NCBI GenBank assembly: GCA_903884345.1
Contig: CAISEE010000032.1
Span: 1 to 35,373, forward strand
Source of the DNA: Candidatus Adlerbacteria bacterium
GTDB taxonomy: Bacteria > Patescibacteriota > Minisyncoccia > Phycocordibacterales > SBAW01
Direction: 5' to 3'
DNA length: 35,373 bases
Position 1 is the stretch's first letter. The number at the start of each line of letters is the position of its first letter. Below the pieces are notes generated by a model, which searched no databases, was not told where the DNA came from, and was given only the letters and a program-made list of their open reading frames with translations. Below are positions 31,857-35,255 of the stretch, piece by piece. The translations under genes were made by a program, and so were the position numbers.

Positions 31857-31991
31857 TTACGCCGAGAGTTTGGCGCGGCCCTTCTGGCGGCGGCGCGCGA
31901 CGGTCTTACGGCCGCCCGGGGTAGCAATCTTCTTAAGAAAACCGTGGGCACGAGCGCGCTTGCGCTTCTTTGGTTGATACGTTTGCGACAT
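31857..31991 (-). CDS. rpmH: 50S ribosomal protein L34
   Basis: 44-aa basic ribosomal protein of normal length. The core [19 protein letters not shown] and [14 protein letters not shown] is the standard L34 motif. It begins [12 protein letters not shown], with ATG 31991 lying 6 nt after TATAGT and no SD. First gene of the rpmH-rnpA-yidC-jag block, divergent from dnaA. Confidence 0.96.
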
Positions 31992-31997
31992 AGGGGC

Positions 31998-32026
31998 ACT
32001 ATACAATATCCCCACGTTCTCCACAA
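31998..32026 (-). promoter_or_regulatory. Promoter of rpmH operon, leaderless
   Basis: On the minus strand TTGTGG (32026-32021), 17 nt, TATAGT (32003-31998), then 6 nt to ATG 31991. The -35 overlaps a DnaA-box-like site (TTCTCCACA at 32017-32025). Confidence 0.6.
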
Positions 32027-32047
32027 CTTGTGCACAAAAGTGGATAT
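32017..32047. promoter_or_regulatory. Cluster of DnaA-box-like sites between rpmH and dnaA
   Basis: TTCTCCACA (32017-32025, 8 of 9 to TTATCCACA), TTGTGCACAA palindrome (32028-32037, 7 of 9 in either direction) and, on the minus strand, ATATCCACT (32047-32039, 7 of 9). They sit across both divergent promoters and suggest DnaA autoregulation of dnaA and rpmH. Confidence 0.5.
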
Positions 32048-32048
32048 T

Positions 32049-32077
32049 TTGACGCTGACCCCACACTCGCGTATCCT
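32049..32077 (+). promoter_or_regulatory. dnaA promoter
   Basis: TTGACG (32049-32054), 17 nt, TATCCT (32072-32077), 15 nt to ATG 32093. The leader would be only about 9 nt and has no SD. Confidence 0.65.
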
Positions 32078-32092
32078 AGAGACACTTCCGCT

Positions 32093-33433
32093 ATGACCAC
32101 CATCAAAGAACTTTGGGAAAACGCATTAGTAGAACTCGAGCTCACGATTTCGAAGCCCAATTTTAATACGTGGTTTAAGGACACACACATCGTCCGGGTC
32201 GAAGATGGGGTCGTCTTCCTCGGCGTCCCCAGTCAGTTCGCCCGCGACTGGCTCTCGACGAAGTTTCACAAGGACATCCTGCGCTCTTTGCGCGGCCTCT
32301 CGGAGAACGTGCGCAACGTTGAGTACGTCATTTCGCGCAACGCCAAAAAGGTCAACGAAGAGGTCCGGGTCGTTCCCGCAACCGTCTCGGAGCTCCCTTT
32401 GGAGAGTATCCACTCCAAAACCAACCTCAACCCGCGCTTTACGTTCAACACCCTTATCGTGGGTGCGTTTAACGAATTAGCGCACGCGGCAGCGCAGGCG
32501 GTGGTGCGCAAACCCGGCATCGCCTACAACCCGCTCCTCATTTACGGCCCCACCGGCCTTGGCAAAACCCATCTCATTCAATCAATCGGCAACCACTTCC
32601 GTATCAACGCGCCCGATCGCAAAGTCCAGTACTGCACCAGCGAGAAGTTCTCGATGGACTACGTCTCGTCGCTCCAGTCGGGGAAGGTGCAGAGCTTCAA
32701 AGAGAAGTACCGCCAGTACGACCTCCTCATCATGGACGACGTGCAATTTTTGGCGAAGATGGAGAAGACCAAAGAGGAATTCTTTCACCTCTTTAACTAT
32801 CTCCACGACGGCAACAAACAGTTGGTCTTCACCTCAGACCAGCACCCCAACATCATCCAAAACCTCGAAGACCGCCTGAAGTCGCGCTTTAACGCCGGGA
32901 TGATTATTTCGGTGACCCCACCCGATCGTGAGTCACGCTTCGCCATCGTGCGCTCCAAAGCCGCGCTCCACAACGTCATCATCCCTGACGAAGTTTTGGA
33001 GTACCTCGCCGACACCATCGAAGGGAACGTGCGGGAACTCGAAGGTGCACTCAACCTCCTCCTCATTCAGCTTGAGATGCGTCAGGAGCCTATTACTGTG
33101 AGCGACGCGAAGGTACTTTTGCGTGGCACCGGTAACGCGACGAAGAAGAGCGTCTCGATCCAAGAGGTGGTCAAAACCATCGCCAACTTCTACGGCATCG
33201 AAGAGGGGAGTATCTACGAGAAGACCCGTCGCAAGGAAATCGTGCGCCCGCGCCAGGTCATCATGTTTCTCCTGCGCGAGGATTTTAAAATCTCGTTCCC
33301 GACAATCGGCGAAAAACTGGGCGGCCGCGACCACACCACCGTCATTCACTCGTGCGAGAAAATCAAGAACGACATCACGAGCGATAGCATTCTCAATCAG
33401 GAGTTAAACCAGATTCGGCTCATGTTGAAATAG
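32093..33433 (+). CDS. dnaA: Chromosomal replication initiator DnaA
   Basis: 446-aa AAA+ initiator that binds DnaA boxes, unwinds the origin and loads the helicase. Domain I (about 1-85, IKELWENALVELELTISKPN, FNTWFKD) is followed by a short linker. Domain III has Walker A GPTGLGKTHL (about 152-161), Walker B LLIMDDVQFL (about 211-220) and the initiator-specific region with TSDQHPNIIQNLEDRLKSRF. Domain IV (about 345-446) binds DNA through the signature GGRDHTTVIHSCEKI. Complete length. ATG 32093 is chosen because family members start near MTTIKELWENA and an upstream in-frame ATG would lie before the promoter. Confidence 0.97.
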   Translation: MTTIKELWENALVELELTISKPNFNTWFKDTHIVRVEDGVVFLGVPSQFARDWLSTKFHKDILRSLRGLSENVRNVEYVISRNAKKVNEEVRVVPATVSELPLESIHSKTNLNPRFTFNTLIVGAFNELAHAAAQAVVRKPGIAYNPLLIYGPTGLGKTHLIQSIGNHFRINAPDRKVQYCTSEKFSMDYVSSLQSGKVQSFKEKYRQYDLLIMDDVQFLAKMEKTKEEFFHLFNYLHDGNKQLVFTSDQHPNIIQNLEDRLKSRFNAGMIISVTPPDRESRFAIVRSKAALHNVIIPDEVLEYLADTIEGNVRELEGALNLLLIQLEMRQEPITVSDAKVLLRGTGNATKKSVSIQEVVKTIANFYGIEEGSIYEKTRRKEIVRPRQVIMFLLREDFKISFPTIGEKLGGRDHTTVIHSCEKIKNDITSDSILNQELNQIRLMLK

Positions 33434-33633
33434 TGTTGATAACCCCACGAATAGCATGTGAAAAACGAATGAAAGAAAGTGGACGAAACCGTTATCCCCA
33501 GAAGTAGTGCGTCGATATCCCCAGGAAGTGCTTCATAAAAATCTCATTTACATGGCGTTAGATAAAGACATTCTCGACTTATCCTGTAATCAACAGCCCT
33601 AGTAGTAATAATAGTCTTTTAATAAGAAGAGAT
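33434..33633. other. Probable replication origin (oriC) with DnaA boxes and DnaA-trio-like run
   Basis: The 200-bp dnaA-dnaN gap has several DnaA-box-like sites. These are TTATCAACA on the minus strand (33442-33434, 8 of 9), TTATCCCCA (33492-33500, 8 of 9), ATATCCCCA (33515-33523, 7 of 9), TTTTTCACA on the minus strand (33465-33457, 7 of 9) and TAATCAACA (33587-33595, 7 of 9). The last is followed by GCCC and then five triplets TAG-TAG-TAA-TAA-TAG (33600-33614) in an AT-rich stretch up to dnaN. This box, GC cluster, triplet order is that of the bacterial basal unwinding element. No protein gene is present. Confidence 0.7.
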
Positions 33634-34731
33634 ATGAAATTCGAGACCAACACCGAACACCTGTTCACAGCCGTATCGACCGCAGCACGATTCGCCGAGA
33701 AGCGCGCCAACCTCCCGGTGCTCGCGAGCATCCTCATCGTCGCCGAAGGTGGTCGTTTGGTGCTGCGATCGACCAACCTCGAGTGTGGGGTCGAGATTCA
33801 GGTCGCGGCGAAGATCAGTGAAGACGGCATTGTCGCCATCCCTGCCAGCGTCCTGTTGGGATTTTTAAGCAACGCCCGCGGCAAGACCCTCACCTGTTCG
33901 CTCGAGGGGGAGGTATGCCGATTTGAGACCGAGCGCGCACAAGCCTCGATCAAGACCATCCCCAACGACGACTTCCCGGTTTTACCCCGCGTCTCGGCCG
34001 AGCGTTCGTTTACCTGTAAAGGTGCCGACCTCGCGAAAGCAATCCACAACGTCGCGTACTGTGCGTCACTCTCGGCTATCAAACCCGAGCTTCAGAGTGT
34101 ATTGCTGTATGGTGAGAGTGGAAAAATTATTGCGGTCGCGACTGACTCCTTCCGTCTGGCCGAGAAGGCGATCCCGCTGCGCTCGGGTGGAGATATCCAA
34201 CAACTCCTCATCCCTGCACGCAATGCGGCAGAACTGATGCGCATCCTCGATGCCGCCTCAGGCGAGGTTGAGCTCTACTACAACGACAACCAGCTCTCGA
34301 CGCACATCGATTCGATCTACTACACCAGCCGCCTCATCGACGGCGCCTTCCCGAACTATCGCCAGATTTTACCGAAGAGTTTCTCGACCGAGGTGGTCGT
34401 CCTGCGCGAGGATTTCGCCGCGGCACTGAAGTCGCTCCAGATATTTGCCGATAAGTTCTCGCACATCTCACTCTCAATTAAACCCGCGGAGAAGGCGCTG
34501 CTCTTAACATCGCGCAACCCCGAGGTGGGGGAGCAGGTTTCGACCATCCGCGCCACTATCGCGGGCGAGGAGCTCACGATGTCGTTTAACGGCCGCTACT
34601 TGGCCGACAGTCTCCAGGCGATTACTGGTGAGTCCATTCGCATCTGCATCAATGGTGCCGGTAAGCCGATTATCATCAAGAACACTGCCGACGAATCCTT
34701 CCTCTATTTGGTGATGCCAATGAACCGCTAG
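33634..34731 (+). CDS. dnaN: DNA polymerase III beta sliding clamp
   Basis: 365-aa ring-forming processivity clamp. It starts MKFETNTEHLFTAVSTAARF and shows the three-domain clamp pattern, with ANLPVLASILIVAEGGRLVL (domain 1), the IPNDDFPVLP segment that precedes domain 2, and the C-terminal FNGRYLADSLQAITG and ending YLVMPMNR. The family ends in 'pm r'. The ATG is preceded by the weak purine run GAAGAG and the AT-rich origin DNA. dnaA-dnaN synteny confirms the assignment. The next gene begins 2 nt after the stop. Confidence 0.96.
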   Translation: MKFETNTEHLFTAVSTAARFAEKRANLPVLASILIVAEGGRLVLRSTNLECGVEIQVAAKISEDGIVAIPASVLLGFLSNARGKTLTCSLEGEVCRFETERAQASIKTIPNDDFPVLPRVSAERSFTCKGADLAKAIHNVAYCASLSAIKPELQSVLLYGESGKIIAVATDSFRLAEKAIPLRSGGDIQQLLIPARNAAELMRILDAASGEVELYYNDNQLSTHIDSIYYTSRLIDGAFPNYRQILPKSFSTEVVVLREDFAAALKSLQIFADKFSHISLSIKPAEKALLLTSRNPEVGEQVSTIRATIAGEELTMSFNGRYLADSLQAITGESIRICINGAGKPIIIKNTADESFLYLVMPMNR

Positions 34732-34733
34732 GT

Positions 34734-35255
34734 ATGCCTCTCAGACGCGCTATATTCGTGCTAGCAGCGTGTATTGGTGCAATGTTGCTCGTGGTACAGA
34801 TTAACGGAACGTATTCGATTCTAGCGGCAATTGGGGAGGTGCCGTTTTCCATTCTCAAACAATGGGAAGAGCAGGGTGCCACCACGCAAGTTATTCGATC
34901 GTTTCAATCAACGCACGAGCTGCTGGTGACAGGGATGATGGACACGAAGACGCGCACCAGTATGAATGGCGCACTGTTTGCACAACTGTGTCCTTTGGCA
35001 ACCACCACAGAACCTAATCTTTCCGATTTCGTCGTCACAAAAACCGTTGGGCTTCCTATTGACTATATTCCCGCTGACTTAGTATCGCTTCAAGGAGTGG
35101 TGCCGGTTGAGCAGGTGTCCTGTGTGACTAAACAAACAAGTGGCGCACTTTCCTTATTGTTTGCAGCGGCGCGTGCTGATGGGGTGATGCTCGCGGTGAC
35201 GTCCGGATTTCGACGTCCCGAGATACAGAGTATTGGGCTTAATGGGAAAATGTGA
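34734..35255 (+). pseudogene. Truncated VanY-like D-Ala-D-Ala carboxypeptidase
   Basis: 173-aa reading frame. A signal anchor (about 5-27, AIFVLAACIGAMLLVVQING) precedes a soluble region. LPIDYIPADLVSL (about 105) and LLFAAARADGVMLAVTSGFR (about 143-162) match the N-terminal half of the VanY/DacB-type peptidase domain (zinc enzymes that trim peptidoglycan stems). The catalytic 'S.HQ.G.a.D' half is missing. The frame ends with a stop shortly after SGFRRPEIQ. In the +2 frame the sequence continues GLMGKCEAMQAAKAVS, as homologues do, before a stop at 35280-35282, so a one-base frameshift plus loss of the 3' half is likely. A minus-strand reading frame begins at the break. Confidence 0.55.

Follow-up and report, generated by a model that had tools for sequence, protein, structure and literature searches.

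A DnaA-trio-like array of opposite triplet sense in the dnaA-dnaN intergene of Candidatus Adlerbacteria and its relatives

The DNA that we analyzed (the window, a whole stretch of 35,373 nucleotides from a Candidatus Adlerbacteria draft genome) carries, between dnaA and dnaN, a DnaA box, a short GC-rich spacer and an array of five in-register triplets. The triplets resemble DnaA-trios, except that each is reverse-complemented in place relative to the CTA/TTA seen in published systems, and this type of array is lineage-wide. On the sequence evidence, we give even chances to the reading that this putative unwinding module is a BUS-like variant with an altered trio code. More tentatively, we propose that in Patescibacteria the central base of the trio code, read on an unchanged strand, went step by step from adenine to thymine while DnaA lost its Asn187 (B. 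subtilis numbering).

The dnaA-dnaN intergene as the likely origin

Positions 33434-33633 of the window make up the whole 200-bp gap between dnaA, which ends at 33433, and dnaN, which starts at 33634. The features of this region are the following.

32093-33433, plus strand: dnaA (Pfam DnaA_N, Bac_DnaA and Bac_DnaA_C; aligned over its full length with B. subtilis DnaA, 8btg)
33434-33442, minus strand: inverted DnaA box TGTTGATAA, 1 mismatch, immediately 3' of the dnaA stop
33492-33500, plus strand: DnaA box TTATCCCCA, 1 mismatch
33515-33523, plus strand: DnaA-box-like site ATATCCCCA, 2 mismatches
33579-33587, plus strand: degenerate distal box of a tandem pair, TTATCCTGT, 3 mismatches; base 33587 is common to the proximal box
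33587-33595, plus strand: proximal DnaA box TAATCAACA, 2 mismatches to TTATCCACA
33596-33599, plus strand: GC-rich 4-nt spacer GCCC, as long as the spacers of the canonical controls, for example GCCC in Priestia and GGCC in Latilactobacillus
33600-33614, plus strand (the box strand): triplet array TAG TAG TAA TAA TAG, TAGTAGTAATAATAG; complement, 3'-5', ATC ATC ATT ATT ATC
33615-33633, plus strand: short stretch reaching the dnaN start, A+T-rich by base composition
33634-34731, plus strand: dnaN (Pfam DNA_pol3_beta domains 1-3)

The dnaA open frame reaches further upstream, to a GTG at 32030. The box, the GCCC and the five in-register triplets named in a preliminary description of this DNA are all present where it had placed them, as are the four further DnaA-box-like sites that it had noted upstream of the proximal box (1, 1, 2 and 3 mismatches). 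The GC content of positions 33600-33633 is 21%, against 57% for the window, and a search of the window for Rfam elements found none. Even when one mismatch is allowed, the five-triplet array occurs only once in the 35 kb of the window (0.00 expected), and no run of five TAR triplets (TAA or TAG) near a box arose in 5000 dinucleotide shuffles of the window intergene. The arrangement of box, GCCC and triplets is therefore not due to chance.

Given its synteny (dnaA and dnaN flanks), the clustering of DnaA boxes and the GC skew of relatives, this intergene is, with near certainty, the oriC of the Candidatus Adlerbacteria genome. Genus intergenes hold about 5 boxes with at most two mismatches, compared with 0.8 in shuffles, and 2.3 boxes at one mismatch, compared with 0.06; an inverted box lies within the first few bases past the dnaA stop in 24 of the 34. 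The window comes from an 887-kb draft of 56 contigs, on a contig that stops 1.7 kb past the intergene, so the skew of this genome itself cannot settle the origin. By its named relatives, the genome is a Candidatus Adlerbacteria-like member of the Paceibacteria/Parcubacteria. We read the GC skew in a relative of the same genus (G024, 200 kb read) and in a complete genome of the same order (G037). In the former, the cumulative minimum at 253 kb adjoins dnaA (minus strand, 254.2-255.65 kb), which puts the intergene at the skew minimum. The latter, whose dnaA is at 51 kb, has a broad minimum near 80 kb and its maximum at 492 kb. Read through these relatives, the GC-skew switch falls at the dnaA-dnaN site. 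The preliminary description had named this interval a candidate oriC and had suggested a skew analysis and a comparison of relatives' intergenes; its call gains support from the flanking genes, from the minimum beside dnaA in G024 and from the conservation of box and triplets across genus and order.

The divergent rpmH/dnaA intergene (window 31991-32092) also holds DnaA-box-like sites, namely TTCTCCACA (32017-32025), TTGTGCACA and GTGGATATT, which could make the origin bipartite. We also considered a second array on the rpmH-dnaA side and rejected it, as no TAR array was found there in 29 genus loci.

Triplet sense compared with published DnaA-trios

The published trio, 3'-[G/A]A[T/A]-5', lies on the complement of the box strand, and the box strand beside it is expected to read CTA or TTA (PMC8235120, PMC7561715, PMC10201434). 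For instance, the perfect trio of H. pylori is 5'-CTA-3' as written on the other strand (PMC8235120), the trios of C. difficile are written CTACTACTATTACTACTA (PMC7561715) and those of B. subtilis 5'-CTACTATTACTTCTACTA-3' (PMC10201434). As polarity controls we used dnaA-dnaN intergenes located in plasmid-labelled records, leaving out the loci of Paenibacillus cellulositrophicus and Monoglobus, which have no dnaN after dnaA. From box through spacer to array, the controls read TTATCCACATTTCCACA-GCCC-CTATTACTACTACTA in Priestia, ATATTCACC-GCGC-CTATTACTATTACTT in Paenibacillus cellulosilyticus, AAATCAACA-CTCC-CTATTACTATTACTACTA in Acetoanaerobium, GGTTCCACA-GGCC-CTACTACTATTACTT in Latilactobacillus and, more weakly, GTTTCCACA-GCAG-TTATTAACACTA in Arthrobacter, with a spacer of 4 nt in all five. 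Canonical YTA arrays thus stand on the box strand at spacer 4 in the Gram-positive controls, and they do so in other Patescibacteria as well. The window, TAATCAACA-GCCC-TAGTAGTAATAATAG, has the spacer of the controls and the opposite triplet sense: its box strand reads TAR, not YTW.

The proximal box of the window, with two mismatches and a spacer of 4, falls within the box rule for a BUS (at most two mismatches, within 16 bp of the array). The rule for the trios is at least three consecutive 3'-[G/A]A[T/A]-5' on the box-complement strand, running off the box, and the best canonical run in the window intergene is one. The preliminary description, which had matched the array to the described basal unwinding element, therefore had the trinucleotide right but its strand wrong; the triplets run towards the box. 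Its suggestion that the minimal module persists in this lineage holds as far as a module lies at the same place and spacing; the triplets have changed, and Asn187 of DnaA is replaced.

Two other ways of reading the triplets have to be weighed. On the box strand they are perfect TAG/TAA trios, and DnaA might engage that strand itself, taking up exact 3'-[G/A]AT-5' trios through a folded-back or reversed oligomer in the geometry of ssDUE recruitment, by which DOR-bound Thermotoga DnaA binds three TAG repeats (PMC10316083). We regard such a strand swap as improbable, since published filaments run 3'-5' off the box and there is no dnaN-side box to start a reverse filament. Alternatively, DnaA could stay on the usual strand with its register shifted by one base towards the box. 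A relaxed published BUS rule, used by programs, asks for at least three 3'-NAN-5' with a spacer of up to 16, and the window fits it only at spacer 3 (3'-GAT-CAT-CAT-TAT-TAT-5'); in the spacer-4 register of relatives and controls, the array has no match to it. Such a register slip would keep the central A and relax the first base to a pyrimidine. In 79% of the order's arrays, a C or T precedes the first triplet, which would yield a canonical first trio, and two loci (L186, L185) resemble spacer-3 arrays. We nevertheless consider the slip unlikely in view of the mixed arrays and of residue 187, which are described below.

Conservation of the array and its intermediates

A first set of 101 unique intergenes, nearly all of the window's order, was examined for strict TAR runs of at least three triplets near a box. 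These runs were found beside a box in 66 of the 101 intergenes, mostly of the window's order, against 0.4 in shuffles, while canonical YTA runs were found in one, from a distant relative (L198). A second set of 213 unique intergenes spans four kinship levels, and about 38% of them fell in no class. At the genus level there were 32 TAR-type, no canonical and 2 unclassed intergenes; the corresponding numbers were 42, 1 and 25 for the order, 24, 10 and 40 for the class, and 2, 21 and 14 for the rest of the phylum.

The base-frequency matrix of the order reads TATCCACA, four GC-rich bases and then TAA TAG TAA TAA, and that of the canonical genomes has the same box and spacer followed by YTA YTA CTA CTA CTA. 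Most relatives carry TAATCCACA or TATCCACA at the place of the proximal box, and the tandem box at the place of TTATCCTGT is kept. The order's arrays begin 4 nt from the proximal box, as do those of canonical Patescibacteria and of the Gram-positive controls.

Within the order, the array lies 13-68 nt ahead of the dnaN start, and its distance and phase to dnaN vary; we therefore rejected tandem stop codons or a leader peptide. An A+T-rich array so close to dnaN could also serve that gene as a melting or promoter element, flexible and rich in TA steps, without being bound by DnaA as trios, and TA steps are known to destabilise duplexes (PMC10316083). We hold this to be very unlikely because the triplet register is strict and the 4-nt box spacing is fixed across many families, the same variation in distance and phase to dnaN speaks against it, and the array is homologous in place to proven Gram-positive DnaA-trios.

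One locus from another genus of the same family (L036) departs from its TAR-type relatives in having CCCCCTTCTTACTTCATTTT at the array place, a sequence rich in pyrimidines on the box strand. Three loci (L179, L181 and L183) have TATATATAATA-type repeats after the proximal box in place of the triplet array.

In the class, several arrays mix the two types of triplet in one frame: CTA TAA CTA CTA CTA (L302, L315), CTA TAA TAA CTA CTA (L294, L298) and CTA TAA CAA CTA CTA (L296, L301). Near boxes we counted 20 cases of YTA-(TAR or CAR)-YTA and 4 of YTA-RTA-YTA. These mixed arrays and counts fit a substitution of the central base in place and are unexpected under a block inversion or a one-base slip; at the level of sequence, the mixtures show an apparent stepwise replacement in place. 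Block inversion of the array was rejected because the mixed CTA/TAA arrays share a single frame. The register slip meets the difficulty that TAA stands in frame with CTA at spacer 4, the 4 cases being those of the slip-predicted type, and the strand swap would need consecutive trios to be read on different strands.

DnaA residue 187 and array type

The B. subtilis structure shows DnaA capturing two bases per trio, the first and the central one: Arg202 and Glu228 bond the first, and Asn187 hydrogen-bonds the amino group of the central adenine. A central T in the trio impairs origin function in B. subtilis, and Asn187 is not universal among DnaA proteins (PMC10721633). An alignment with B. subtilis DnaA (8btg) shows that the DnaA of the window has the arginine finger and a canonical domain IV box motif (LEDRLKSRF, GGRDHTTV). 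Glu228 is kept and Arg202 is replaced by Lys, and the adenine-reading residue of the initiator-specific motif, Asn187, is absent, with Met in its place. The first-base contact positions are Lys202/Glu228 in both array types.

Asn187 is present in 24 of 29 genomes with mainly canonical arrays and in 5 of 74 with mainly TAR arrays. Within the class the figures are 13 of 13 and 4 of 20 (Fisher p 5e-6), and most genomes whose arrays are mixed in the CTA-TAA-CTA pattern retain the residue. There are exceptions in both directions, such as TAR-array genomes with Asn187 (L205, L289) and a canonical one without it (L254). The association between array type and residue 187 is confounded by ancestry: the DnaA tree has only about 6-7 changes of array state, and the 4-6 independent pairs averaged 2.3 agreeing and 0 opposing for residue 187, too few for significance. 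The columns of the initiator-specific motif are weakly enriched within the class (p 0.038). Over the whole set they show no enrichment, so ancestry dominates there, and we rejected them as the main discriminators at that scale. The A. aeolicus DnaA has Gln at the 187 position, and E. coli DnaA is likewise not known to have Asn there.

The loss of Asn187 bears on both alternatives: it is unexpected under a register slip that keeps the central A, and under the strand swap the same trios would be read, so that Asn187 should persist, yet it is lost.

Candidate mechanism and known systems

Under the altered trio code, DnaA would bind the tandem boxes closest to dnaN, and its oligomer would cross the GC-rich spacer of 4 nt and continue along one of the two strands of the array, with DnaA-dependent opening proceeding towards the A+T-rich dnaN leader. 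In the window's order, the array would have been altered in place, from CTA/TTA on the box strand to TAA/TAG. DnaA would keep the strand and register used in B. subtilis and read a central T, that is, 3'-A-T-[T/C]-5' and not 3'-[G/A]-A-T-5'. A central-T reading fits the loss of Asn187, because this residue contacts the amino group of a central adenine, and residue 187 may be the cause of the code change. We base this proposal on the observed origin context, conservation, polarity, spacing, mixed intermediates and residue 187 association.

The window resembles the B. subtilis oriC BUS (DnaA-boxes 6/7 and DnaA-trios) in its dnaA-dnaN place, same-orientation tandem boxes, GC-rich spacer, in-register trinucleotide array and A+T-rich flank. 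It differs in having TAG/TAA and not CTA/TTA on the box strand, Met for Asn187 in its DnaA, and degenerate proximal and distal boxes. Canonical Patescibacteria arrays (for instance L254, L255, L263 and L276) share the boxes and the 4-nt spacing, but theirs are YTA triplets on the box strand and Asn187 is mostly kept. The eTrio of Thermotoga maritima (three TAG repeats, ssDUE recruitment) likewise has essential TAG repeats in the DUE beside a box and a GC-rich motif, a likeness that concerns the TAG repeats irrespective of the orientation of box 1 to the TAG strand; its DnaA-box sequence differs, and its DnaA keeps Asn at the 187 position.

TTATT is the motif named for the E. coli DUE (PMC10316083). 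The complement of the window array, 5'-CTATTATTACTACTA-3', is T-rich and contains TTATT, and the complement strand of the window is the equivalent of the E. coli upper strand. However, the E. coli oriC lies outside dnaA-dnaN, with IHF and many boxes, and the likeness need not reflect homology of the arrays. The E. coli DUE may thus offer a parallel (TTATT, and no Asn at 187).

According to an earlier proposal, DnaA-trios are an ancestral origin-opening element that is broadly conserved and keeps its central adenine; the papers that we found do not take them up for Patescibacteria. If the altered code is true, the origin-unwinding code is evolvable, with residue 187 helping to set it. A large bacterial group with the same box and spacer, reverse-complemented triplets, intermediates and a matching DnaA change would show how such a code drifts, and the TAR-array group provides a direct test of base capture. 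Across much of the candidate phyla radiation, unwinding sites may be misread or overlooked by programs that follow the published consensus. With the polarity corrected, a lineage-wide DnaA-trio variant with intermediates and a candidate matching DnaA change takes the place of a plain BUS match and is more interesting than it.

Further observations

Six genomes, G186 and G276 (single contig, 99-100% complete) together with G053, G161, G177 and G228, have no above-cut-off match to the DnaA AAA+ domain and no match to the C-terminal domain, which possibly reflects loss of dnaA or an assembly artefact. G165, a congener of G186, has both domains. In a 96%-complete draft of the window's genus, full dnaA is missing and the only trace is a DnaA_C domain standing alone in a frame of 253 aa (G031:C12:5549-5746). 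In the window, dnaN is followed by a small gene (34734-35255) with a weak match to a peptidoglycan-binding domain (E 2e-4, below the Pfam cut-off).
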